Below the pieces are notes generated by a model that did not search any database, was not told where the DNA came from, and worked only from the letters and a program-made list of their open reading frames with translations. From IMG/VR virus record IMGVR_UViG_3300032235_000396, positions 1 through 29,350 of that record: DNA of 29,350 bases. One strand, 5' to 3'. Shown piece by piece: positions 2,622 through 26,975 of the stretch. The position numbers were made by a program, and so were the translations under genes. The DNA is from a virus. Numbering within the stretch: position 1 is the first letter of the stretch; every line of letters begins with the position of its first letter.

Positions 2622-4343
2622 ATGTCAATGTCAGACGAGCAGAAAGATCGCCTCATCCAAAAGATTCTCAAGTTTCCGCTGGTTGAGCATCCATTGATGC
2701 CGGCTCCCTCCGAGGAGCAGCGGATGACGATGATCAACAACGTCGGCCCTGAGGAAGTCATGCGCCTCTTCCTGATGCGGGAGCAACGTGTGAAGGCTGA
2801 GCTTTCTGATCCACATCGCTACGGTACGGAACTGGAATCTTGGAAGGATGCTGACTCAATCCTCAACAACCATTCGGAGCTGCTCATCCTTGGTGGCAAC
2901 CGGGCTGGAAAAACTGAGTACGCTGCCAAGCGGATCGCCCAAGCATTTGTGGGCACTGACCTGAATGGCTTTGCTCCTGACTGGGTGAAAGAGAAGTTCC
3001 GCAAGCGTGGCGTGAACATCTGGTGCCTACACCAGTCCAACTCGACCAGTGTGGCGATGCAGCAAAACGTCTTTCACAAGTACCTACCGATTGAGCTTAA
3101 GGAAGCCAAGCGCAGCAGGACTACCCATGTGAGTTGGACGCAGAAGAACGGTTTCTCTGACAACACGGCAGTCTACAACGGAAACCAGATTTGGTTCATG
3201 AACTACATGCAGGACATCAAAGTCGTCGAAGGCGGCGAGGTGGACTTTGTGTGGTGCGATGAACTTGTTCCGGCTGACTGGCTGGAGACGCTCAAGTACC
3301 GTTTGGTCACCCGCAACGGGAAGCTGATCGTTACCTTTACGCCCATTCAGGGCTACACCCAGGTTGTTAAGGAGTTCATTTCTACCGCTAAAATTAAGCA
3401 GTGGAAGCAGAGCGAGCTTCTGCCCAACAACAACGTCATCGGTGTACCAAAGGGACACATGCCCTACATGGCAGAAGGTGTGTACGGAAAACACGGCTGC
3501 ATCTGGTTTCACTCCAAACTTAATCCCTACAACAACTGGGAGCGGATGTGCCAGACCCTCAAAGGGCGCAGCACGCACGACATCAAGATCCGTGCCTATG
3601 GCTGGGCAGACCAGACTGCCGGCAGTCAGTTCCCAATGTTTGGTGAGGCAAACATCTTCACTGACAGTGTTACGGAACGTGTGCCAGAGGGCACCAACTA
3701 CATGGTGGCTGATCCGGCAGGAGCCCGAAACTGGTTCATGCTCTGGGCCAGGGTGGACGCACATGGCACCATCTGGATCTACCGTGAATGGCCGGATCAG
3801 AGCTACGGTGAATGGGCGCTTCCAAGTGACAAGGCTGACGGTCGTGCCGGCCCTGCACAGAGAAGTGGAGCTGGCCGCGGCGTAAACGAGTACACTGAAC
3901 TGGTCTGGAGCCTAGAAACCCATGCTGACAAACGCGAGGAGATTGCAGAACGCTACATTGATCCGAGAAGCGCAGGCACGGAGACGACGAGCAAGGAAGG
4001 GGGTGTTACTCTTTTGGATCTTCTGCTTGACGCTTCTGAGCCTCTTTATTTCCTTCCTGCTGCTAGTGTCTCGGTAGATGAGCGTGTTTTAATCATCAAC
4101 GATTTGCTTTGCTATAATCGTGAAGCAGATATTGATATTAAGACTAACCACCCGCGGCTAATGGTGCATGAGAGTTGCCAAAACCTTATTTACTCTTTAA
4201 GAGAGTGGACTGGGCATGACGGGCAAAAGGGAGCGTGCAAAGATCCGATTGACGCTTTAGGTTATCTTGTGGTAATGCAACCTAGCCACTCAAAGCAATT
4301 AAACAAGGAGTGGCAAAAGTTTAATAAGTGCGGGAGCTATTAA
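2622..4343 (+). CDS. terL: Terminase large subunit (packaging ATPase-nuclease)
   Basis: This is the motor that cuts concatemeric DNA and pumps it through the portal into the prohead. The 573-residue protein has the full two-domain plan. The ATPase domain shows Walker A GGNRAGKT at residues 91-98, Walker B VDFVWCDE at 207-214 and the coupling motif VTFTP at 237-241. The C-terminal RNase H-like nuclease shows acidic clusters ADPAG (about 363-367), IDPR (447-450) and DPIDALGY (541-548), which would bind the metal ions. Start 2622 was chosen as the first ATG; 2628 is an alternative. No Shine-Dalgarno sequence precedes it. A small terminase subunit is not recognised nearby. From about 4020 the gene becomes clearly more AT-rich, with many TTA, ATT and GAT codons, which may mark a recombination boundary within the nuclease domain. 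Confidence 0.95.
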   Translation: MSMSDEQKDRLIQKILKFPLVEHPLMPAPSEEQRMTMINNVGPEEVMRLFLMREQRVKAELSDPHRYGTELESWKDADSILNNHSELLILGGNRAGKTEYAAKRIAQAFVGTDLNGFAPDWVKEKFRKRGVNIWCLHQSNSTSVAMQQNVFHKYLPIELKEAKRSRTTHVSWTQKNGFSDNTAVYNGNQIWFMNYMQDIKVVEGGEVDFVWCDELVPADWLETLKYRLVTRNGKLIVTFTPIQGYTQVVKEFISTAKIKQWKQSELLPNNNVIGVPKGHMPYMAEGVYGKHGCIWFHSKLNPYNNWERMCQTLKGRSTHDIKIRAYGWADQTAGSQFPMFGEANIFTDSVTERVPEGTNYMVADPAGARNWFMLWARVDAHGTIWIYREWPDQSYGEWALPSDKADGRAGPAQRSGAGRGVNEYTELVWSLETHADKREEIAERYIDPRSAGTETTSKEGGVTLLDLLLDASEPLYFLPAASVSVDERVLIINDLLCYNREADIDIKTNHPRLMVHESCQNLIYSLREWTGHDGQKGACKDPIDALGYLVVMQPSHSKQLNKEWQKFNKCGSY

Positions 4344-7798: not shown

Positions 7799-8881
7799 AT
7801 GCCTGTTCTAACAGAACCCAATCTATCCGGTCGCGGTAAACGCGAAGACCTCATGGACATGATCGCCTTGGTTGACGCCAAGGACACGCCGTTCACGTCC
7901 ATGGCCAAGAAAGGCTCCAAGCCTGGCAATATGTACTTCCGCTGGCAGTCTGACAGCCTCCCAACCCCTCAGGTTGGTGGCACGCCGGACGGCTTGGACG
8001 TAAACCTCACGACTGGTGTCACCAACTACGTTGTTGGCTACCGCGCTGAGCTTGCCAACTACGCTCAGGTTTACCGCCGCGCAGTCCGCGTCTCCAAGCT
8101 GACTCAGGACATCGCTGATGTCGCTGGTGTCCGTGATGAGCTGGCTGACAACGTTGCCAAGGCAATCACTGGGATCAAGCGCGACATGGAAGTCACCATG
8201 ACCTCCAACCAGGTTTCCCAGCTCGACACTGGTGACCAGACGACTGCGTACCGCACCGCGGGCGCGCAGACCTGGATCAGCAATGCCGGCACTGGCACTC
8301 CGACTCCTGGCGACATTCCCACGATTTTCCGCACTCCGACGACCTCTATTGTTGGTGGCGGCACTGCGCTGGGGACCTCGCTGACGGACACGGTTGTACA
8401 GGGCCTGCTCAAGTCGATCTTCGATCAGACTGGTCACTACACCAGCTTTGACTGCATCGTTGGGACGGATCTTAAGCGTGCCTTCACCGGCCTGCTGGGT
8501 ACCACTTCCCTGACGACCACCTCGACTGCTGGCGTGACTGGCGCAGGCGCAACGAAGGTGCAGACCTTCCAGCGCGATGCAGCCGCGGACACCTACATTC
8601 AGTCAATGGACGTGTTCCAGGGTGATTTCGGCACGGTGCGCTTGCATCCGACGACCTTCATCGGCACCGTTGGTGGCAGCCCGTTTGTATGGACTCCCAC
8701 TCCCTACAAGGGGTTGGTGCTCGACATGAACCTCATCGAAGTTCGTTACGGTGGCAATGTGGCTCAGGTCACTGCCCTGTCTGACAACGGTGGTGGTCCT
8801 GGTCGTTTGATCGAAGCAGTTGCTGGTCTGGTTGTCGGGAACCCGCTGGGCCTCGGCAAGTTCGACTACAACGCTGCTTAG
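7799..8881 (+). CDS. Major capsid protein (DUF5309/SU10 type)
   Basis: This is the 360-residue coat protein forming the icosahedral or prolate shell. The N-terminus (GKREDLMDMIALVDAKDTPF, then a KKGSKPGNMYFRWQSDSL segment) has the pattern of the DUF5309 family, the capsid protein of Escherichia phage SU10 and relatives. The end of the protein (LVVGNPLGLGKFDYN) is also typical of a beta-rich HK97-fold P domain. It directly follows the scaffold gene. Codon use is GC-rich and even, as expected of a highly expressed virion gene, although the start lacks a Shine-Dalgarno sequence. A structured non-coding segment follows the stop. Confidence 0.92.
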   Translation: MPVLTEPNLSGRGKREDLMDMIALVDAKDTPFTSMAKKGSKPGNMYFRWQSDSLPTPQVGGTPDGLDVNLTTGVTNYVVGYRAELANYAQVYRRAVRVSKLTQDIADVAGVRDELADNVAKAITGIKRDMEVTMTSNQVSQLDTGDQTTAYRTAGAQTWISNAGTGTPTPGDIPTIFRTPTTSIVGGGTALGTSLTDTVVQGLLKSIFDQTGHYTSFDCIVGTDLKRAFTGLLGTTSLTTTSTAGVTGAGATKVQTFQRDAAADTYIQSMDVFQGDFGTVRLHPTTFIGTVGGSPFVWTPTPYKGLVLDMNLIEVRYGGNVAQVTALSDNGGGPGRLIEAVAGLVVGNPLGLGKFDYNAA

Positions 8882-16154: not shown

Positions 16155-16402
16155 GCAAGCTCACCTTGGTACTTGGCTCCCTTATGGGTGGCGGCAACAA
16201 AGAATACTGCCCAGATTGTGGCTGTGAAATGAAGTCCAACGGCACTTGCCCGGACTGTGGCTATGGCGAGGAAGAGGACGAAGATGACATGGAAGAAGAA
16301 GGTGAAGATGAGGGCATGGACATGCAGGCCCTTATTGACCTCAAGAACGACCTTCAGCGAGTAATGGAAAAGATCGACAGGTTGATCGTCAATGGCGACT
16401 AA
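16151..16402 (+). CDS. Zinc-ribbon acidic small protein (83 aa)
   Basis: This 83-residue protein has four cysteines in a CPDC-x9-CPDC ribbon (residues 20-36) that would bind one zinc ion. An extremely acidic stretch follows (about 40-58, Glu and Asp with few other residues), then an amphipathic C-terminal helix (LIDLKNDLQRVMEKIDRLI). The first ten residues are mildly hydrophobic. It is coupled to the endolysin stop and overlaps the next start by 11 bases. The domain order suggests a binding adaptor or DNA-mimic rather than an enzyme. No family is recognised with confidence. Confidence 0.75.
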   Translation: MSKLTLVLGSLMGGGNKEYCPDCGCEMKSNGTCPDCGYGEEEDEDDMEEEGEDEGMDMQALIDLKNDLQRVMEKIDRLIVNGD

Positions 16403-18554
16403 CGACACACAGCCAGCCCAAATCAGGGATGGTGATGACTGGTTCCTAGGCTTTGCAAGCCGACTAGATCCAGGCAACATCCCCGAGAAGATGTTGCAAT
16501 CCTCACAGAACATGAGGTTGCAGCGGGGCACTGCTACGATTCGTTTAGGCGCAAAGAGGCTTAACGGATTTATTCAGGACAACCGCATTCCAGATCTGCG
16601 GAGCACGACAGTGTACACTGACCCCAACACTGGGGAAGACTTCATCCTGATGGTGCTGGGTGGAGGGATGATGCTGTGCTATCAGGACGGCACGGTTTAC
16701 AAGTACATCAATTTTACTTACTCCACGAACGTCAATCCGGTTGGGTTTACATCCCCAGAGATTAACATTGGCACGGAGACGCAGGCAATTCAGGCGCTTG
16801 ACAAGGTGTACATTCTCCGCGGGTCTGCCACAACTCCGGCAGCAGCGGTTACGTTCACGAATGCAGCCATTTCGTCTGGAACCTGGGGCACATTTACTGT
16901 CATTGGATTCCCATGGAGAAAGTGGCTTGCGCTACCATACGTTACGGACACTGATGCCGGAACGGTAACGATTACCATTCCAAGAGATCACGGCTTTCAA
17001 ATTGGAGATGTTTTGGAAGTATTTTCTCCAGTGCAGTTTTCCACTACGATTACTGCAATAACAAACACGACGATAGTTGTTGATTACAGGCCGTCGTTGC
17101 CAGTGTTTCCAGGTAATATCTCATTCATGCTTTACACTGATGTGTACGGCACTGAATTGATTATTCAAAGCACACACCAGCCACATTTTAATGGAACTTA
17201 TCCAGTACAGAATCCTGCCACTATTCTGACAACTGGAAATGTTGTGCTTCATTATTTTAATAATACTGGAAGCAATATATCTGCTAACACAAATCAATCA
17301 GGCATGACTGCATTGCAGGCAAAAAGCCCGATTGTGTGGGATGGCGTGTCCACTACGGCATCGCCGGTTAATCAAACAACCGTGATGACCGGAACAACTG
17401 CTCAGGTTCCTCCGGCAGACTTTGGAATCTACTTTCAAAACAGGTTAGTCCTAAAAACCAGCGATCACTACATTGCTGTGAGCGACATATTGAGCGACAC
17501 GTTTGATATGCAACTCAACAACTTTAACATCAACCTTGGCAGCGGTGATGACATTATTGGGTTCCTGCCGTGGATTGAGAGTCAGTTTTTGGTGTTTATG
17601 CGCCGCGCTATTTACATTGCGTTCGTGCAAACCACTAACTACATCTCTGGCCCTCCTGGGATAGAGAGCAGCATTACTGTGGTCACCAACGAGGTTGGGT
17701 GCCTTTCTCGGCGCAGCATCGTAAATGCTGGCCAGTTCGTGTTCTTCTTGTCTCCAAAGGGCGTGCATATGCTGACGCCGCAGCTCGATCTTAAGCTGCT
17801 GGGTAACACTCAGCCACTCAGTGAGCCGATTGCTGACTTCTTTGATGCAATCAACTACAACACGGCCTTTCACGCAGCCGCGGCGTATTACAATAACCGC
17901 TTTTACATTAGCATTCCTTGGAAGGGCAGCGAATACAGCGCCCAAAATCCAACTTGGAGCTACAATAACCGGATAGCGGTTTACAACACACTCAATCAGC
18001 AATGGGAGTCGATTGACTCATACCAGAGCGACATGTTCGTGGATGAGTTTTTCACATGCTCCTATGGTAATGAAAGACGCTTGATGGCCGGCTGCCGTAT
18101 CTGGGCAGGCTGGAGACAAGGAGATGCCTTTAATCCGATCCTGAGCCCAGGCGTTGCGCTGTTTGAGGAGACTCAAGACTTTGACGAATGGTCGTACATT
18201 TACGACGATCCAGACTACGTCATCATGCCATCTCCAATCATCGGCATTATGAGATCAAGGGAGTACATGTTTGACTCCCTTAACGAGAAGCGGTTTCTCA
18301 GGGCTCAGGTACAAACCAACAATAACGTAGGAGATCGTGTTCAGATTTACGTTAATGTGCATGATTTTGATGCCAGAGAAATGGTGATGGACTACACCTT
18401 TGAGCAGGGAACCGACGCCACACTGAGGCCGCGGATTGCCCTCAGAGGATCTGCCATTGATGTTGAGGCGCACATTTTATCTGGATCACCTTCAATTAAA
18501 ACGATTCAGGTGACTGGAATAACAACTGATAGACAGATGATTTCACAAGAATAA
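16392..18554 (+). CDS. Large virion protein, tail nozzle or stopper candidate (720 aa)
   Basis: This 720-residue, mainly beta protein has an N-terminal GFASRLDPGNIPEKMLQSSQ, then MRLQRGTATIRLGAKRL. That layout (a small list of locations or dimensions then a beta-rich domain) recalls the starts of podovirus tail nozzle proteins of the T7 gp12/P22 gp10 kind, although no exact motif proves it. Trp-, Tyr- and Asn-rich strands run throughout, and the C-terminus is a beta domain (ALRGSAIDVEAHILSGSPSIKT). The position after the lysis cassette and before ejection proteins fits a tail-tube end piece. A general virion-structural role is firm; the nozzle call is inference. Confidence 0.6.
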   Translation: MATNDTQPAQIRDGDDWFLGFASRLDPGNIPEKMLQSSQNMRLQRGTATIRLGAKRLNGFIQDNRIPDLRSTTVYTDPNTGEDFILMVLGGGMMLCYQDGTVYKYINFTYSTNVNPVGFTSPEINIGTETQAIQALDKVYILRGSATTPAAAVTFTNAAISSGTWGTFTVIGFPWRKWLALPYVTDTDAGTVTITIPRDHGFQIGDVLEVFSPVQFSTTITAITNTTIVVDYRPSLPVFPGNISFMLYTDVYGTELIIQSTHQPHFNGTYPVQNPATILTTGNVVLHYFNNTGSNISANTNQSGMTALQAKSPIVWDGVSTTASPVNQTTVMTGTTAQVPPADFGIYFQNRLVLKTSDHYIAVSDILSDTFDMQLNNFNINLGSGDDIIGFLPWIESQFLVFMRRAIYIAFVQTTNYISGPPGIESSITVVTNEVGCLSRRSIVNAGQFVFFLSPKGVHMLTPQLDLKLLGNTQPLSEPIADFFDAINYNTAFHAAAAYYNNRFYISIPWKGSEYSAQNPTWSYNNRIAVYNTLNQQWESIDSYQSDMFVDEFFTCSYGNERRLMAGCRIWAGWRQGDAFNPILSPGVALFEETQDFDEWSYIYDDPDYVIMPSPIIGIMRSREYMFDSLNEKRFLRAQVQTNNNVGDRVQIYVNVHDFDAREMVMDYTFEQGTDATLRPRIALRGSAIDVEAHILSGSPSIKTIQVTGITTDRQMISQE

Positions 18555-18556
18555 CA

Positions 18557-19342
18557 ATGAGCAAAATTACAACATTCTCTGATTTTTTAGCATACACAAT
18601 TTATTACAAAAACATCTGCAAGAACAATGACCTGCTAAAGCAATACTGGGACGGATGTACTTCAATTTATGTAAATAACAACTATCCTGTTTTTCAGGCT
18701 GGTTTGTTTTCAAATAATTTTGACGAGCATTTGGAGATTTTACATGAAAGGCACTGGCAAAACGGATCAAAAAAAGTCCTAGATGCCGGATGCGGAATTG
18801 GAAAGGTCACAAACTCTTTTGCAAAAAAGCACCCTGAAGCATCTTTTACAGGGCTGACAATTTCATCAGAGCAGGTCCAGATTGCAGAGGCAGAGGCAGA
18901 GGCTCTTGGAAACTGCGCGTTTGTACAAGGGTCTTATGACTCTATGCCGTTTGAAGATGCCACCTTTGATTTTGTTTATTTTTACCAAAGCATAGGATAT
19001 AGGCCGCTTGTTGATGTCCTTGCAGAGGCGTACCGTGTACTTAAGCCTGGAGGCAAATTGTTAATTTCTGACATGTGTTCTGTGGATGACCCTCATCCAC
19101 ATGAGGCTTGGGAAATAAAACAGCTTCAAAAGATATGGCATTACATGTGTTACCCGTGCTGGTATCATTTGAAGGCAGCAGAGATTTCTGGCTTTAAGTT
19201 AATTGAGCACAATTCCAATCTAAATCAAATTGTTGATTACACTGTTTGGGCAGATTTGGTAAACGGTGGGCTTGGAAGTTTCCATAAAAATGAAGTTCCG
19301 TTTTCGCCAATTAAAGTTTCTGAGTTTTTGTATCAAAAATAA
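18557..19342 (+). CDS. Class I SAM-dependent methyltransferase (261 aa)
   Basis: The enzyme transfers a methyl group from S-adenosylmethionine to an unknown acceptor. Motif I is VLDAGCGIGKVT at residues 74-85, followed by GLTISSEQVQIAEAEAEA (99-116) and the post-motif YRVLKPGGKLLI at 159-170. The TISSEQVQ segment and the spacing resemble the sterol, tocopherol, cyclopropane and terpenoid C-methyltransferase type more than DNA methyltransferases, and there is no DPPY or NPPY motif. The first 70 residues are an unrelated helical cap. It is followed at once by a DDxxD protein with an overlapping start. The pair uses visibly more AT-rich codons than its neighbours, which fits recent gain. Acceptor unknown. 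Confidence 0.85.
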   Translation: MSKITTFSDFLAYTIYYKNICKNNDLLKQYWDGCTSIYVNNNYPVFQAGLFSNNFDEHLEILHERHWQNGSKKVLDAGCGIGKVTNSFAKKHPEASFTGLTISSEQVQIAEAEAEALGNCAFVQGSYDSMPFEDATFDFVYFYQSIGYRPLVDVLAEAYRVLKPGGKLLISDMCSVDDPHPHEAWEIKQLQKIWHYMCYPCWYHLKAAEISGFKLIEHNSNLNQIVDYTVWADLVNGGLGSFHKNEVPFSPIKVSEFLYQK

Positions 19343-19776
19343 TGGATTATTGTAGCAAGCCAAGCGAAGTGGCCAAAACGCCAAAAGCATTAGGCGTGAT
19401 GCAATTTATTGCCAACGGGAACAATCACGCTTTTGATTTCATTTGGAGATGCTGGAACTTTTGCCACATCATAGATGACTTGGTTGACAAAGACGAAAGC
19501 GTAACGATCAACGAAATAGCCAGAGAGATATTTCTGTTTATTCAGATGATTTCTTTGAATCCATTTTTTCAGCTTCACAAGCATAGCCTTCTTCCGCTTA
19601 TACTGAATGCTTGTGATGGCTGGGTGGCCGGAGAAAGAGCGGCAAGCCAAGGAAAACGATATTCAGCAGTGCTTAAATGCAGCGACTTTGTGATATATTC
19701 TCATGTCGCCTTCCTTGTTGGAGGGTGGGAGCACATGCGGAATCTTGACGAGATACGGTCTTACGATAAGGAGTAA
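19342..19776 (+). CDS. DDxxD-motif helical protein (144 aa)
   Basis: This 144-residue helical protein contains RCWNFCHIIDDLVDKDE at residues 36-52, so DDLVD at 45-49 has the DDxxD form used for diphosphate binding by isoprenoid synthases. The Trp-Asn-Phe-Cys-His part and the C-terminal VAFLVGGWEHMRNL resemble helical phage proteins of unknown role that share an (I)DD-containing helix. It is under half the length of a terpene synthase and lacks a visible second metal motif (NSE/DTE), so catalysis is not shown. Its start overlaps the methyltransferase stop by one base, so the two are co-translated and likely act together. Codon use is AT-rich like the partner. Its end holds AAGGAG, a ribosome site for the next gene. 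Confidence 0.65.
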   Translation: MDYCSKPSEVAKTPKALGVMQFIANGNNHAFDFIWRCWNFCHIIDDLVDKDESVTINEIAREIFLFIQMISLNPFFQLHKHSLLPLILNACDGWVAGERAASQGKRYSAVLKCSDFVIYSHVAFLVGGWEHMRNLDEIRSYDKE

Positions 19777-19779
19777 ATT

Positions 19780-21378
19780 ATGGGCGATTACGGCGGCGGC
19801 GGATCAACAGTAGTACAGGCACCAGCGGCTCCTGATTACACGGAGTCGATGGAAAGCATCTTGGCTGCACAGGTTAAGATGGCTCCTGAGGTGTATGCCT
19901 CTGAGGCGAAATATCAGCCACTTTATGGTGCCCTACAAGCTCAGCAGCAGGCATTTCAAACTCAGCAGAGCTTGGACATCGCCAAGAAAGCCTATCCGCA
20001 AATTGCGGAGATGGAGGCGGCCTACAATCAGGCCAACCGAGCCGCTGAACTTGGGCAGCTTCAGACCGCTTTGCCGGCATACCAGCAGGCATTTAACGCT
20101 CTGACTCCTGGGTATGCTCAGGCTGTCGAAAATGCCGGCCAGTTAGCTCAATCAGCAACAGCCCAAGCTCTTAATCGACCAGTTTTTGGTTCATACCAAA
20201 ATGCGGTCAGGGACCCGTATGGGGCACCGATGACATTGGCGCAGCCGCGGATGGTTTCCATGGCTCAGCCACAGGCGCAGCAGCCTTCTTTAGCTTCTGG
20301 AGCCCTACAGGTCCAAGGCAACTTAGGGCCAATTTCTGCTGAGCGCCCTGGCATGATGCTTGGCCAAAGACAGGGTCCGGCAGATAACATTGCCAGACAA
20401 ATACAAAATATACCTAGCACACAGCAGGCTTATTCTAACCTGCAAGAGACTCCTGCCGGCGGATACGTCAACGCAGTTCGAGGATTTACTCCAGACAGAA
20501 ATCTGGCATCAAACATCCAGAACCTAGATCAGGGTTCTGTTAATCAGTATATTGGAGCAATGCCAGGAATGGGGCAATACGCCGACTTCTTGGCACAGAG
20601 TTCTGCTCAACAGCTGATGGCCGGCAAAAGCCTTACAGCAGAAGAGCAACGCCTGGCAGATCAGGCTGCTCGCTCTGCGTATGCCGCAAGAGGGACTGCG
20701 CTTGGACCTCAAGCAGTAAGCGCTGAGATTCTTAACCGTTCTGATGTGGCCAACAGGCGCTATCAAGAGCGATTGCAAAATGCGGCTCAAGCTGCCGGCA
20801 CAATCCAAGCCATTTACCAGCCAGCATTGGCTCAGTCATTGCAACGCCAGCAGGCTGGTATTGAATACGGCATGGGGCAACAGAAGCTCCTTCAGTCCGC
20901 TCAAGAGCAGGCTTACCAACAAGCCATGGGTCGCGAGCAGCTTGGCGCAGGCATTCAGCAGGCAGCTTTCCAGCAGGCACTGCAACGTGGCCAAGCAGAA
21001 CAGCAGGCTTACGCTGCGGGAACACAGGCTCAGGCGGCTCAGGCTGCTTTGGGTGCTGGAGCTATGTCTCAGTTGCAGGCAGCTCAGGCTCCTGTGTTGC
21101 AGGCATTCTACAAGCAGCCTATCCTTCAGGGGCAGGAGGGCCAGGCGCAGCAGATGGCAATGGCCATGCAACAGCAGTCAGGACCGCAGTTGTTTAACCC
21201 AGAGTCTCAGACTGGCATGGGTAGCATCTATGGCGCGTACAACTCGCAGATGAACCTAGCTGGCGCTCAGGCTCAGGCTAATGCTGCCAAGTCGGCTGGG
21301 CAGTCCAGTATGATTGGCTCGCTTGGCGGCGGTCTTTTATCTGCTGGAGGAATGATCGGCGGAGCAATGATTCTTTAA
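19780..21378 (+). CDS. Gln/Ala-rich internal virion (ejection-type) protein (532 aa)
   Basis: This 532-residue protein is very rich in Gln and Ala and appears to be almost all helix, with long Gln-Ala repeats between about 60 and 480. It opens with MGDYGGGGSTVVQAP and ends in a glycine-rich hydrophobic tail (SLGGGLLSAGGMIGGAMIL) suited to membrane contact. These traits fit an internal virion or ejection protein that enters the cell with the DNA, as in podoviruses. It is the first of the large proteins of this block. Unlike most genes here it has a good ribosome site, AAGGAG six bases before the ATG. Specific equivalence to P22 or T7 ejection proteins cannot be claimed. Confidence 0.65.
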   Translation: MGDYGGGGSTVVQAPAAPDYTESMESILAAQVKMAPEVYASEAKYQPLYGALQAQQQAFQTQQSLDIAKKAYPQIAEMEAAYNQANRAAELGQLQTALPAYQQAFNALTPGYAQAVENAGQLAQSATAQALNRPVFGSYQNAVRDPYGAPMTLAQPRMVSMAQPQAQQPSLASGALQVQGNLGPISAERPGMMLGQRQGPADNIARQIQNIPSTQQAYSNLQETPAGGYVNAVRGFTPDRNLASNIQNLDQGSVNQYIGAMPGMGQYADFLAQSSAQQLMAGKSLTAEEQRLADQAARSAYAARGTALGPQAVSAEILNRSDVANRRYQERLQNAAQAAGTIQAIYQPALAQSLQRQQAGIEYGMGQQKLLQSAQEQAYQQAMGREQLGAGIQQAAFQQALQRGQAEQQAYAAGTQAQAAQAALGAGAMSQLQAAQAPVLQAFYKQPILQGQEGQAQQMAMAMQQQSGPQLFNPESQTGMGSIYGAYNSQMNLAGAQAQANAAKSAGQSSMIGSLGGGLLSAGGMIGGAMIL

Positions 21379-22217
21379 TGACTGCTGAACAAATTATATC
21401 ACTTGCGCTTAAGCACGCTAAACGACCTGCTGTTCTTTGGAGCGGCGGCAAAGACAGCACCGTGCTGCTTGATCTTGCCAGAAAGGTCCGGCCTGATATT
21501 GAGGTTATTCACTTCAAGCTGCCGTTCCTGTCGCATAAGTACGCCTTTCATCACCTTGTACAAGAGAACCTAGGGCTGACTGTCCACGACTGGGTTCCTG
21601 TGTCTGTGGCATTGACGCACGGAAACAGCAGGATTGACGTGTGCGAAAATTACTCGCTTGGCGATGGCAGCTTAAAGGTGATGCGAGGCACTGAGCCGAT
21701 GCAGGCCGGAAAGCCTTGGGTATGCGGCAAGGAGTGGCTCAATCGTCCCAAAGGGCACATCGTCTCTGACTTTGATGTGCTTCTGTGTGGGCACAAGAGT
21801 AGCGACGAAGATCCTCTGACTGGAAGCATTCCGCTTGAGATCGACAAAAAGGTTCTTGGCCCAAACACGGAAATGTGGTTTCCGCTGCGTCACTGGACCG
21901 ATCAAGACATCTCTTCGTACATCAAGACCAACGGCGTGACCTTTGACACGAACAGGTATGATGAGAATGTAGTTAGCAAGCCAGACAAGCACATGAACAC
22001 TGACTACGTTCATGCCTGCTTTAATTGTGTAGACAAGCGACTCGGCAAGTTTGTGGATTGCCCTAAGTATGGCATCCAAGTAGAGAACGTCCATGAGCAC
22101 GTCCTGCACGATCAACCTGTCGCTGAATACTGCAACATCCGATCTGGATTGCAGAGCCTGCGGAGCGTGTTGCAGTCACAAATGGAGTTGGCCGGTGCTT
22201 CGCCGGGACAGGGCTGA
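21378..22217 (+). CDS. PAPS-reductase-family PP-loop protein (279 aa)
   Basis: This is an adenosine-nucleotide PP-loop protein. AVLWSGGKDSTVLLDLA (residues 18-34) holds the SGGKDS loop that binds the ATP-like phosphates of PAPS, APS or an adenylated substrate. Cysteines in HACFNCVDKRLGKFVDCPK (about 212-230) could hold a metal or an Fe-S cluster. The family includes PAPS and APS reductases, DndC-type DNA phosphorothioation proteins and tRNA thiolases, so sulfur chemistry is likely but substrate is not known. It starts one base inside the ejection-protein stop and its last 125 bases overlap the next gene in another frame. No other sulfur-pathway or Dnd gene is in the window. Confidence 0.85.
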   Translation: MTAEQIISLALKHAKRPAVLWSGGKDSTVLLDLARKVRPDIEVIHFKLPFLSHKYAFHHLVQENLGLTVHDWVPVSVALTHGNSRIDVCENYSLGDGSLKVMRGTEPMQAGKPWVCGKEWLNRPKGHIVSDFDVLLCGHKSSDEDPLTGSIPLEIDKKVLGPNTEMWFPLRHWTDQDISSYIKTNGVTFDTNRYDENVVSKPDKHMNTDYVHACFNCVDKRLGKFVDCPKYGIQVENVHEHVLHDQPVAEYCNIRSGLQSLRSVLQSQMELAGASPGQG

Positions 22218-22425
22218 CGCAGCAGAAATACCAGCAGAACTCATTCGAGATGATTACCCACTTCTTAAAACGTGCAACAATAGATGCGCTGCATTGTCTG
22301 GAGTTGTTGGAGAATCAGTTTCGTGTACAATTTACGAAAATCGTCCACAGGCTTGCAGGCAGTTTAAGGCCGGCAGTCTACTGTGCTTAGAAGCTAGGAG
22401 ATCATTTTATGGCAAAACCAATTAA
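22093..22425 (+). CDS. YkgJ-family cysteine-cluster protein (110 aa)
   Basis: This is a metal-binding protein of the YkgJ type. CRACGACC at residues 20-27 gives the CxxCxxCC cluster, and CTIYENRPQACRQF in the C-terminal half is the second conserved block, so a zinc or Fe-S site is likely. ATG 22093 is the only good start upstream of the cluster, so the first 125 bases lie inside the PP-loop gene in another frame. Its stop also overlaps the 253-aa gene by 17 bases. It sits directly after a PP-loop enzyme, so the two may form one redox or modification unit; that link is inferred. Confidence 0.8.
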   Translation: MSTSCTINLSLNTATSDLDCRACGACCSHKWSWPVLRRDRADAAEIPAELIRDDYPLLKTCNNRCAALSGVVGESVSCTIYENRPQACRQFKAGSLLCLEARRSFYGKTN

Positions 22426-23170
22426 TCTTTACCAAGGCCCAGCTCCGGCAGCCATGGGCATGATGGGCCAAGGCATCCTTGAGGCTGGAGCCAACATTGG
22501 CCGCACGATTCAAAGTGGCTATGAGGCAATGGGTAAAGGGCTTGCTGGTGGGATCTCAAGTGCAGCCAGTTCGATTGCTGGGGCGTATACGCAAAGCAAA
22601 GACGATCAAGCCAAGTTTGACGCTACCAAAAAGCTGTTCAATGCCTTTGAGAGCTATCTGCCAAAGCAAAAAGATCTAGAGACTGGCAAGGAGTTTAGCC
22701 CAATTGGAAATCAGATTAGGGCGATATTTAATGACACAACGATGTCAGTCAGAGAGAAGAATGCCATGGCTCCGACGTTACTAAGCTTCCTTGCTAACGC
22801 ACAGCAGCAGTACGGCAGAGAATCGGTTGCAAACATCATGAACGCTGGTCGCGTTGAGGCGGCTGGCGCTCGCAGGCCGGGGCCAGTGGCAGGCACCTCT
22901 TTTGGTGGAGTGCCTACAGTTGACCAACTCCTCAACTCTTCTGTTGGGCAGCCTCAGGCCAATGATGGCTCTTACGCTTTGCCGGCAAATCCATCTCAAG
23001 GAAACCCTGGGGCATTGATAAGCAATGCGCCATATGCTCAAGAATCAGGCACGCGAGTTGATCCAAATACTGGAATGACTCAATTCTGGGATCCAAAAGT
23101 AAAGCGCTGGATTGATGAGGAGTTGTACTTTAATCCACAAACACTTGGGCTAGAGCGTCCGCCTCAATAA
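22409..23170 (+). CDS. Putative ejection protein (253 aa)
   Basis: This 253-residue protein has an N-terminal Gly/Ala-rich amphipathic part (about 10-65, including MGMMGQGILEAGANIG and GKGLAGGISSAASSIAGAY), helical middle segments (KKLFNAFESYL), and a Pro/Gly/Asn-rich C-terminal half. The length and composition recall the smaller ejection proteins of P22-like phages, but no motif proves it. It has a clear ribosome site, AGGAG eight bases before ATG 22409, and starts inside the end of the cysteine-cluster gene. It is probably co-expressed with the ejection proteins before and after it. Confidence 0.6.
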   Translation: MAKPINLYQGPAPAAMGMMGQGILEAGANIGRTIQSGYEAMGKGLAGGISSAASSIAGAYTQSKDDQAKFDATKKLFNAFESYLPKQKDLETGKEFSPIGNQIRAIFNDTTMSVREKNAMAPTLLSFLANAQQQYGRESVANIMNAGRVEAAGARRPGPVAGTSFGGVPTVDQLLNSSVGQPQANDGSYALPANPSQGNPGALISNAPYAQESGTRVDPNTGMTQFWDPKVKRWIDEELYFNPQTLGLERPPQ

Positions 23171-23175
23171 TTTTT

Positions 23176-24675
23176 ATGGCTGATCCAACCTACCTAGACA
23201 GGCTTTACGACGAGATCGGTCAGTACGGAGATCGCATCAAAGCTACATTTGGCGGAAGCGGAGGATTGCCTCAAATTGCTGCAAATTGGGCAACTCCTTA
23301 CGGTCCTTCTCGGGAAGAAATGCTGGCAGAGCAAAATAGGCTTAGGCTACAGCAGGCCAAAGAGGAACTGATGGCGCAGCAAAGTGCTGGGCAATTGTCA
23401 GAAGCAGACATGCTTGAAGGCCAGGCTATTCAAGAAAATATCGGAAACCAACTTCAAGGACTTGAGCGGCGTATTGGAGTTCCAGCAGCTTCTCCTGAAG
23501 AAATAATGCAGCAGCAGGACGAGGGGAATCGCCGGTATGTGCAGTATTTAAGGCAAAATGCAGCGGCGTTACAAGGGCCGTTTCTGCCTCAAGACCAACG
23601 GGAGGCTCTTTCCAGAGAAGAGTACCAAAAGTACGTCATAGAAGGGCAGGCTCCAGTAAAAGCACAACTAAGCCGGCCAGCAGAGGTTATTCCAGCCCCT
23701 GCCGCGGTTGCAGAGATGGCGGCGGCCATGCCAAGACAGCAACAGCCTCGTAGTATCCCAACGCTTTCAGAAGTTCCACAGGAGGCTGTTTACGCCCAAC
23801 AGCTTGGGCAGCCACAAAGAGCTACCATTAAAGATAAAATTGCTTCGCTTCCATACGAGGCGGACAGAATTGACGCAACCAGAAAAGTCATTCAGCAGGC
23901 TAGACTGAAGACGTACAATGATGCGTTAAAGTATGTTAGCGAAACTTATGGCATTGAGACAACCCAGGGCCAGAATGCGTTAAAGACAATCAAGGACAGC
24001 ATTGAGGAAAATCTTCCTTTACCAAAGCCAATTGAAGAACATCAGCAGTTTAAAAGTGCTGAGAAAAACTGGACTGATTTAAGGGAGACTCAAAATAGAA
24101 TCAGCAAGGTCACTGGACAAGTTGAAGAGGCCCAAAGGCTGATGGAGATTGATCCAAATCAGGCCCTTATTCACATGAAAGCAAATGTGATTAAGCCGCT
24201 TAACTCAATCCTGTCTAATGACGCAATTCAATTGCAGGAAATGATTGTTCGCTTTAGCGATTTGCTAAGCGGATCAGAGCTTGCTCAGATTGCAGGAAAG
24301 GGGATATTTAATCCTACAATTCTTTTTAACAAATACCTGTCTCTTGATGACAAAGAAAAAGAAGGATTTATTGAAAAGTTTACAAGAACGCTTTCAGAGG
24401 CAAATCCTCAACGGTTTCTTGATACTGCAATTAACGGAGTAAACGGATACATCAATCGGTACAACAAGGATCTGACCAATCAGGTCATCAACATAACAAG
24501 CCCAACGGTTGCAAGGCAGATGGGAGCCGTGTTGATGGAGCCACTAAAGGCGAGACCGATGCAAGCTGAGCTTCCAGCCACATATCCTCAAGCTGGAGTC
24601 CCAGTTGCTGGGCAGCAAAAAACTGCCGTTCCGCTGGATATTGAGGCGATGCGGTCTCGTTACAAAAAGCAATAA
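23176..24675 (+). CDS. Putative internal virion protein (499 aa)
   Basis: This 499-residue protein is helical and Gln/Glu/Ala-rich, with long stretches of coiled-coil type (about 50-170 and 215-340) and a proline-rich linker around 155-200. Recognisable catalytic motifs are absent. The C-terminal end is Pro/Ala-rich (LPATYPQAGVPVAGQQK). It lies between two other ejection-type genes, so a role in DNA delivery or the internal core of the head is inferred. The start follows an AATAATTTTTATG context without a Shine-Dalgarno sequence. Confidence 0.6.
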   Translation: MADPTYLDRLYDEIGQYGDRIKATFGGSGGLPQIAANWATPYGPSREEMLAEQNRLRLQQAKEELMAQQSAGQLSEADMLEGQAIQENIGNQLQGLERRIGVPAASPEEIMQQQDEGNRRYVQYLRQNAAALQGPFLPQDQREALSREEYQKYVIEGQAPVKAQLSRPAEVIPAPAAVAEMAAAMPRQQQPRSIPTLSEVPQEAVYAQQLGQPQRATIKDKIASLPYEADRIDATRKVIQQARLKTYNDALKYVSETYGIETTQGQNALKTIKDSIEENLPLPKPIEEHQQFKSAEKNWTDLRETQNRISKVTGQVEEAQRLMEIDPNQALIHMKANVIKPLNSILSNDAIQLQEMIVRFSDLLSGSELAQIAGKGIFNPTILFNKYLSLDDKEKEGFIEKFTRTLSEANPQRFLDTAINGVNGYINRYNKDLTNQVINITSPTVARQMGAVLMEPLKARPMQAELPATYPQAGVPVAGQQKTAVPLDIEAMRSRYKKQ

Positions 24676-24677
24676 TT

Positions 24678-26975
24678 ATGGCTGACATCAACGAACTTTA
24701 CGACCTCTTAAGGAGTGCTGATGCTGCCGCCCAAGCAGGCGACCAGCAAGCGGCAGCCGATGTTCAGGCTTTGCTTGGTGAGATTGATCGGATTCAATCC
24801 GAGACAAAACAAGCGCAGCCGGTTGCAGAGCAAAGCGCAGGAAAGGAGGCGCTCGATTACGCTGCACCTGTAATTCGTGGAGTTCTTCCAGCCGTAGCTA
24901 CTCTCGGAGCTGGAGCTCTTGCAGCAGCAGCGGTGGGGGCACCAGCAGCCGCTGGAGCTGGCGCATTGGCTCTTGGAAGTGCTCTTGCTGATCCAATTGT
25001 TGCTGGTGTCAATAAGCTGTTTGGAACTCGCTTAACCAGCCCAACAGAAGCCTGGTCACAGGTCATGGATCAAATTGGCATACCCGTTTCCTCAAGTGAG
25101 GGAGCCAGGCTTGTCGAAGCCATTTCTGCGGGTGGCGCAAGCGCACTTACTGGCGTTGGAGCAGGAAAGCTACTCATGCAGCTTGCTTCCCCAAAAGCGA
25201 GAGCAATTGGCGCAGCACTGGCGTCTGGCCCAGGCCAACAGGTTGTTGCTGGCATGGGTGCTGGCGCTGGCAGTGAGATTGCCAGATCAAAGGCAGAAGA
25301 ACTTGGAGCAGGAGAAACTGGCCAAACTATTGCCGGGCTTGTTGGTGGGCTTGCTGGTGGTATGGCTGGCGCAAAGCTAGGAGCTTCAAGAAGCCTTGCT
25401 CCAGTTCAGCCAAAAGTGCCAGGCATGACTCCCGCCGAAGTTGCAGCAACGGTTGCAGAGGCTGAGGCTGCCGGAAAGTCAGTGATGACTTCTGATGTAT
25501 TTCCACCTGAAACAAAATGGCAGAAGCTTAGGCAGGAGTTTACTGAAGGCACACTTCTTGGAACGGCCCCACAGCGGGCACTTGAACAGCAGGATCGTGT
25601 CAACACAGTGTCTGAGTTGCTGTCTCGATTCGGAGCCGCAGCTGATTCTGAAGTCATTGATGACGTGATGAAATCGCTTGGCCGCGAGAGGTCAGCGCAA
25701 CTTTCAACATGGACAGGCCAAAAGAATGCAATCATTGGCAGAGTATCTGGCGCTATGCCAGCCATGCAGGCTTCTGAGCTTAGCTCTACATTGGCCACAA
25801 TTGATTCAGAGGCCAAACGGTTAACGGGAATCAACAAAAGTCATTATGCTCCTGCAATCTCTAAGCTGTCTGAAATTAAGGCAGCCCTGTTAGGAGATCC
25901 AATCCTTGATCCAGCAACAAATGCTGTGATTGGCTACACAGGAAAGTCGCTTGCTCAGATTGAGCCAAATCTTCGTGTTGTAGGAACCTCTTTGGCAAAA
26001 GATCCATCTCTTGCCCACATCAAGAGTGAATTTGAAAAAATTGGCCAAAAGGTTTATAGGTCACTACGGAATGATGTGAGAGGTTTTATTGAGGCGGCTG
26101 AAGGCCCTGCTGTAGCCTCAGAGTGGACAAAGGCAAATGCCGAGATCCACAACATGATTGGAGAGACTGAATCTACTGCACTTCGCTCTGTGCTTCGTAG
26201 AGGCAAAGCCAATCCAGAACAGGTTGCGCAGTTGTTATTCTCCCAGAAGCCAAGCGACATTCGTATCCTGGTGAGGAACCTTGATGCTGCTGGACTTGAT
26301 AGCGCCAAGTCAGCAATCCTCTCAAAGGTTGCCAAAGACTCGCTTGTCAGCAGTGGCGATATTTCAATTCCAAAATTTCTCAACAATATCCAGAAGCAGT
26401 CTAGGCCGCTTGGAATTGTTTTTAGTCAGCCCGAGTTGGATTTAATCAACGGCAAGATTAACTACCTCAAACTCACTCAGCGATCTGGCTCGTTTAACGA
26501 CAATCCGCAGACCGGCGCAAAGCTGGCGATGCCGTTGTTCGTGCAGATGATCGCTAACGCTGCCGGTGGCGTTGCTAATGCTGCCGGTGCTATCGGGGGG
26601 ATTGGCTTGGCTGCCCGTGCGTATGAGTCTCCAACAACGCGGAGGCTCTTAATGAAGTTGCCAAGTCTTGCTCCAAACAGCCCAGAGCAGCTTGCGGTGG
26701 CAAAGCGAATTTCGACGTCATTGCAGTCTGACTATGCCAATCAGATTGCAGACCAGGTTCGTAACAAACAGCTTACATTCCTGCCTGAGTCCACGCAGCA
26801 AGAGAAAGTTGGTCAAGGAATGGCCATGACAGACGCCACAACTGGGTACAGGATGCTGACCAAAGACAACAAGAAGTTTGGCCTGTATGGTCCAGACAAT
26901 CAGCGTATTGGGATCTTCAGCTCACAGGAAGACGCCCGCAAGCGCGCAGAGAAGGAATTTAGAAAACGCAAGTAA
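24678..26975 (+). CDS. Large Ala/Gly-rich ejection-type protein (765 aa)
   Basis: At 765 residues this is the longest gene product of the ejection block. After an acidic helical start it has a long hydrophobic Ala/Gly-rich region (residues 62-112, including VLPAVATLGAGALAAAAVGA) and further small-residue segments at about 145-235 (ASALTGVGAGKLLMQLA and AGLVGGLAGGMAGAKLG) that could enter membranes. A helical middle part follows, with another small-residue segment near 625-650 (AAGGVANAAGAIGGIGLAAR). The C-terminus is basic, ending EDARKRAEKEFRKRK. Repeated membrane-active segments and helices fit a channel-forming ejection protein; no lytic transglycosylase motif was seen. Confidence 0.65.
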   Translation: MADINELYDLLRSADAAAQAGDQQAAADVQALLGEIDRIQSETKQAQPVAEQSAGKEALDYAAPVIRGVLPAVATLGAGALAAAAVGAPAAAGAGALALGSALADPIVAGVNKLFGTRLTSPTEAWSQVMDQIGIPVSSSEGARLVEAISAGGASALTGVGAGKLLMQLASPKARAIGAALASGPGQQVVAGMGAGAGSEIARSKAEELGAGETGQTIAGLVGGLAGGMAGAKLGASRSLAPVQPKVPGMTPAEVAATVAEAEAAGKSVMTSDVFPPETKWQKLRQEFTEGTLLGTAPQRALEQQDRVNTVSELLSRFGAAADSEVIDDVMKSLGRERSAQLSTWTGQKNAIIGRVSGAMPAMQASELSSTLATIDSEAKRLTGINKSHYAPAISKLSEIKAALLGDPILDPATNAVIGYTGKSLAQIEPNLRVVGTSLAKDPSLAHIKSEFEKIGQKVYRSLRNDVRGFIEAAEGPAVASEWTKANAEIHNMIGETESTALRSVLRRGKANPEQVAQLLFSQKPSDIRILVRNLDAAGLDSAKSAILSKVAKDSLVSSGDISIPKFLNNIQKQSRPLGIVFSQPELDLINGKINYLKLTQRSGSFNDNPQTGAKLAMPLFVQMIANAAGGVANAAGAIGGIGLAARAYESPTTRRLLMKLPSLAPNSPEQLAVAKRISTSLQSDYANQIADQVRNKQLTFLPESTQQEKVGQGMAMTDATTGYRMLTKDNKKFGLYGPDNQRIGIFSSQEDARKRAEKEFRKRK

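Follow-up and report, generated by a model that had tools for sequence, protein, structure and literature searches.

The gene for a 144-aa helical protein of a short-tailed phage was found to be a long-standing part of the DNA-ejection module in the window (i.e., the whole stretch of 29,350 nucleotides that was analysed), and the methyltransferase gene overlapping it was an optional, separable neighbour that gave no proof of a terpene pathway. The role tentatively favoured for the protein, as a real possibility rather than the probable answer, is that of an ejection-module factor built on half of an isoprenoid-synthase fold, in the slot held by gp13 in T7 and gp14 in P22, with the methyltransferase as an accessory. 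The protein is conserved in many environmental phages, and none of the searched libraries assigned it a function; it supplies a candidate for the gp13/gp14 slot, which is poorly understood. The positions of the features are collected in Table 1.

Table 1. Positions of the gene pair, its motif and the virion genes in the window.
Feature	Position	Strand	Length, matches and remarks
Terminase gene	2622-4343		
Major head protein gene	7799-8881		
Virion structural/internal virion protein gene, directly upstream of the pair	16392..18554	+	720 aa; phrog_3287 4.7e-10, phrog_511 7.7e-05
Class I SAM-dependent methyltransferase gene, optional	18557..19342	+	261 aa; PF13649 1.7e-21
All-helical protein gene, phrog_21390 family, predicted half isoprenoid-synthase-like fold	19342..19776	+	144 aa; phrog_21390 1.3e-11; AF2 model
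HIIDDLVDKD motif, residues 42-51	19465..19494	+	C-terminal end of helix 28-49
Gly-rich virion protein gene, directly downstream of the helical-protein gene	19780..21378	+	532 aa; equivalents in relatives are virion/ejection
DNA transfer (ejection) protein gene, same module	24678..26975	+	phrog_770 3.5e-48

Overlap and base composition of the gene pair

The reading frames of the methyltransferase and the 144-aa protein had one base in common (TAATG). The original prediction had reported two genes with a one-base overlap, a DDLVD motif in the second protein and a TISSEQ segment in the first, and all of these were recovered: both open reading frames lay where they had been placed, the aspartate motif occurred within HIIDDLVDKD, and the methyltransferase segment read GLTISSEQ. 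The overlap of the two genes was conserved in related contigs. Hence, the pairing was not due to chance.

The reported AT-richness of the pair was also confirmed, with GC contents of 39.1% for the methyltransferase and 43.4% for the helical-protein gene vs 51.6% for the window. A recent cargo insertion of both genes had been proposed, and this claim was not sustained. Of 51 family members, 47 had a helical-protein gene that was richer in AT than the sequences flanking it (mean difference -0.059; Wilcoxon p 1e-9, a value that serves only as a guide because the compared sequences are related), and the gene kept its slot; only the methyltransferase was optional. Low GC was thus intrinsic to the helical-protein gene, and its AT-richness was no mark of recent arrival.

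Position in the virion and ejection module

The helical-protein gene lay directly upstream of a virion or DNA-ejection protein gene wherever the neighbourhood was readable; a few loci ended too early or had an ambiguous mechanical open reading frame downstream, and the slot was counted over readable neighbourhoods. The downstream virion gene in these neighbourhoods was often Gly-rich at its start. It matched phrog_8003 and phrog_6121 (virion structural) and phrog_4287 (DNA ejection protein) in the relatives, and the 532-aa downstream protein of the window had no PHROG match of its own. In three relatives, the upstream gene matched phrog_511 (internal virion protein); in the window, it matched phrog_3287.

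Several other features of this region were recorded. Three genes of the window (22409-23170, 23176-24675 and 24678-26975, encoding 253, 499 and 765 aa) were similar in order and size to the P22 ejection trio gp7/gp20/gp16, and only the last of them had a PHROG match (DNA transfer protein). A PAPS-reductase-family gene (21378-22217; PF01507 5.2e-11) was sited between virion genes and was overlapped by 125 bases by a gene for a CxxCxxCC zinc/iron-chelating domain (22093-22425; PF03692 2.2e-09). The same two genes were paired in L006 (8685-9524 and 9400-9732). In some phages, a Peptidase_S74 endosialidase-chaperone domain formed the end of the virion protein encoded after the helical protein (L002:5844-7031, 6.8e-08; L022:6068-7102, 2.6e-04, just under the cut-off).

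The phrog_21390 family and its conserved motif

The 144-aa protein matched phrog_21390 (PHROGs v4) over residues 23-135 with an E-value of 1.3e-11, and it had no Pfam match up to E 10 and no NCBIfam match. This family was common to 52 of the 53 aligned relatives, the best of which reached 1.4e-31. The family was without assigned function in PHROGs v4, and nothing tested set the proteins studied here apart from it. Iterated scans of viral contigs yielded 112 relatives, and the best 80 loci of the 112 were kept; the relatives in viral contigs therefore numbered at least 80. Further members were present in bacterial genome assemblies and in Achromobacter phage CF418P1. Literature searches returned no paper on the family, and the search for phage terpene synthases led to plasmid-borne gene clusters. 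In the viral structure library, the significant matches to the helical protein were uncharacterised phage proteins only.

Conservation was evaluated in an alignment of 53 sequences that were less than 90% identical to each other. H42, D45, D46, L47, D49 and G128 were invariant in this set, and D51 was kept in 51 of the 53 sequences. One search pattern included the motif, with H[FVI][WI]DDL[VI]D in 79 of 91 loci, and the absolute invariance of H..DDL.D was therefore partly a product of the search. DDxxD was nevertheless kept in all relatives found without the motif pattern, namely 12 found via another pattern, L160, L162 and L169 found via the profile, and L094 and L095 found through the methyltransferase. 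The motif histidine was absent from L162 (QLLDDVVDGD), L094 (RIVDDIQDE) and L095. Homologues lacking the DD pair had been named beforehand as evidence against an isoprenoid-synthase link; DDxxD was present in every aligned relative.

Predicted fold and comparison with isoprenoid synthases

The AlphaFold2 model of the window protein (model 1), which was built from the 53-sequence alignment, was all-helical with a pLDDT of 93.1 and a pTM of 0.88. A total of 239 Foldseek candidates for this model were re-aligned with VIA-align, and all 50 entries listed were isoprenoid or prenyl synthases. The model was aligned with the polyprenyl synthase 4jyx at Z 8.5 (136 of 144 residues, rmsd 2.9) and with MoeN5 5b02 at Z 8.4 (142 residues, rmsd 3.3); values of Z 8.0-8.5 are within the range that helical models reach without relationship, and the suggested threshold for helical models is 13. 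The alignment with E. coli OPPS, in which the first motif is at D84, stopped just short of the second Asp motif (D211), at approximately residue 210.

Model 2 (pLDDT 93.9, pTM 0.87) was obtained for the divergent member L068 with an alignment that excluded the window clade. Isoprenoid synthases occupied ranks 1-17 for this model (VIA-align, Z 8.0-5.2, 134-153 of 156 residues aligned), and the first unrelated chain followed at Z 4.7 with 91 residues and 7.6 Å. Some alignments of model 2 ran beyond the region of the second motif. Foldseek itself gave E-values of 1.7 and above for model 1, and no isoprenoid synthase was among the 50 matches listed for model 2.

Two models from different alignments both gave prenyl/isoprenoid synthases as the best structural alignment, mainly over the half bearing the first Asp motif. 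A fold unrelated to these enzymes, which had been named as the finding that would speak against the original prediction, was thus not what the models indicated. Judged from the models, the helical protein is probably kin to the isoprenoid synthases. The isoprenoid-synthase fold that had been proposed remained the best structural match of two models, for half of the fold; the full length was missing, and the Z values fell in the range that calls for caution.

The comparison was also carried out at the sequence level. A phmmer search of the PDB with the helical protein found nothing. The family profile was aligned with phytoene synthase 5iys on DDLID at E 1.1, and SQS_PSY (PF00494) matched one of the 53 members (E 0.048). 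Profile-profile comparisons were made with 65 SQS_PSY and 30 polyprenyl synthase sequences; the best alignment was with SQS_PSY, in register on DD..D and not significant (probability 0.5%), and the control of SQS_PSY against polyprenyl synthase scored only 11.6%. A proof of isoprenoid kinship from sequence alone was rejected on the basis of the phmmer, profile and profile-profile results.

The window protein had no match to the family models PF00348 and PF00494 (Pfam up to E 10). No second DDxxD or DxxxD motif was found in its 144 aa, in accordance with the caveat in the original prediction that a protein of this length had no second metal motif. Nor was there an RRG segment behind the first motif: DDLVDKD was followed by ESVTINE. 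Because the second metal motif, RRG and approximately half of the enzyme were missing, no catalytic claim was supported and the protein was not filed as a prenyl synthase.

Class, occurrence and separability of the methyltransferase

The methyltransferase was assigned to the class I SAM superfamily by strong HMM matches to PF13649 (1.7e-21; 77.1 bits vs a cut-off of 27) and PF08241 (2.4e-20), which bore out its predicted identity as a SAM-dependent enzyme. It reached no specific NCBIfam cut-off among the models listed, and the model for geranyl diphosphate 2-C-methyltransferase (NF041943) gave 33.5 bits vs a cut-off of 400.

The methyltransferase adjoined the helical-protein gene in the window, L004/L005, L006 and L011. 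In a second, divergent lineage (L094/L095), an adjoining methyltransferase was 62% identical, and its neighbour carried RIVDDIQDE and matched phrog_21390 at 8.1e-12. Moreover, the helical domain in L022, from a beta-proteobacterial metagenome bin, carried a distantly related methyltransferase fused at its C-terminus. This repeated association and the L022 fusion make a functional link between the two proteins possible. The fused open reading frame of 368 aa (L022:4965-6071; also L161:841-1947, - strand) comprised a DDLVD domain and the methyltransferase, and phage-like virion genes were located around it.

The methyltransferase was missing from L023, in which the helical protein was 68% identical and the junction was clean: the helical-protein gene started a few bases past the end of the structural gene, and the sequence closely matched the junction in the window. 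In L030 and L033, the methyltransferase was located approximately 15 kb from the helical-protein gene, after a portal-size gene. Orthologues were observed at L164:3791-4564 and L165:3683-4456, after a portal-size gene and an 88-aa gene and near a phosphoesterase-like gene, in two phages with the helical protein elsewhere. No methyltransferase of this kind was present in 21 of the 28 family-bearing records, some of which are fragments. The methyltransferase of Roseobacter phage CRP-810 (WOZ07712.1) was 41% identical over its full length; it differs in being placed among replication and accessory genes in a phage without a helical-protein homologue. Its occurrence there, the absence of the methyltransferase from L023 and the distance between the genes in L030/L033 indicated that the two genes are separable. 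The phage methylated-terpene operon that had been suggested was accordingly rejected as the default reading: the methyltransferase was separable, most relatives had none nearby, and its score was below the geranyl diphosphate C-methyltransferase cut-off.

Proposed role and rival explanations

In the proposed role, the 144-aa protein belongs to the conserved virion/DNA-ejection genes of a large phage group. As modelled, its fold would be that of a class I trans-prenyl synthase limited to the first half, with a single Asp-rich motif, H..DDLxDxD. A divalent metal may be bound through DDxxD, possibly with a diphosphate ligand, and the protein may dimerise, which would bring two motifs together. 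The protein may help to assemble or stabilise the ejection apparatus; the position of a gene does not by itself establish its function. The methyltransferase would be an accessory late gene that entered the junction in some lineages and sits elsewhere in others. Two facts are left unexplained by the ejection-factor reading, namely the L022 fusion and the methyltransferase beside the helical protein in L094/L095. A bolder proposal, which we regard as distinctly improbable, is that the half-length class I isoprenoid-synthase domain dimerises to a two-motif site, handles a polyprenyl diphosphate in assembly or ejection, and recruits the methyltransferase in some lineages, even as a fusion.

The protein could instead be an unrelated bundle with a common helix arrangement, namely a virion assembly protein whose DDxxDxD would bind metal for structural or regulatory purposes. 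This explanation is unlikely but by no means negligible, as the Z values were under the 13 suggested for helical models, the Foldseek E-values were above 1 and the profile-profile probability was 0.5%. However, the two models ranked isoprenoid synthases first, and in model 2 these filled ranks 1-17 before a next chain at Z 4.7. Furthermore, the conserved motif was itself a DDxxD at a helix end, as in isoprenoid synthases.

A working half-length enzyme was also considered, in which a homodimer with two DDxxD motifs would bind or convert an isoprenoid diphosphate (e.g., polyprenyl diphosphate) and the methyltransferase, where present, would act on the same isoprenoid. The fold match, the DDxxD in every aligned relative, the overlapping methyltransferase in two lineages and its fusion in L022 point to such an activity. 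The half length, the single Asp motif not followed by RRG and the methyltransferase score far under the geranyl diphosphate C-methyltransferase cut-off nevertheless make it improbable; moreover, most relatives had no nearby methyltransferase, and the genes conserved around it were those of ejection and the virion rather than of lipids. Very improbable is an accessory cargo unit of both genes that was inserted among the virion genes and serves, e.g., host takeover or counter-defence. The low GC (39%) and optional occurrence of the methyltransferase, the clean L023 junction and the location in the late operon of L030/L033 are compatible with cargo, but the helical protein kept its slot and occurred without the methyltransferase in very divergent phages. 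Cargo is thus largely refuted for the pair and possible for the methyltransferase alone.

Comparison with known systems

The helical protein resembled class I trans-prenyl/isoprenoid synthases (4jyx, MoeN5 5b02, FPPS and OPPS) in its predicted helical fold, which was aligned over 136-142 of 144 residues, and in one DDxxD at a helix end. Unlike these enzymes, it had approximately half their length (144 vs about 250-350 aa), one Asp motif instead of two and no RRG; the identity to them was 8-12%, with no PF00348 or PF00494 match above the cut-off. If it is half of an isoprenoid synthase, the protein would provide a compact natural instance of the half of the fold that has one motif, and would pose a testable question, namely what a diphosphate/metal-type site is retained for in virion assembly. 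The gene pair shared a class I methyltransferase with TIS.EQ beside a DDxxD protein with the system of geranyl diphosphate 2-C-methyltransferase (NF041943) and a methylisoborneol-type cyclase. It differed from this system in the methyltransferase score (33.5 vs 400 bits) and in the partner, which here had 144 aa and a single motif.

The slot itself was compared with those of T7 and P22. T7 gp13 (138 aa; Pfam name "probable scaffold protein") is encoded directly before gp14, and P22 gene 14 ("virion stability factor", about 151 aa) is located directly before the injection protein gene 7. The PF11090 and DUF2824 models were found in T7 and P22, respectively, and were absent from 23 family-bearing records; PF11090 was absent from the window also. 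Unlike T7 gp13 (PF11090) and P22 gp14 (DUF2824), the helical protein matched neither family model in sequence, and the analogy is positional only: in each case, the first internal or ejection protein gene is immediately preceded by a gene for a small protein. This analogy is consistent with different proteins filling one slot in T7, P22 and the helical-family phages.
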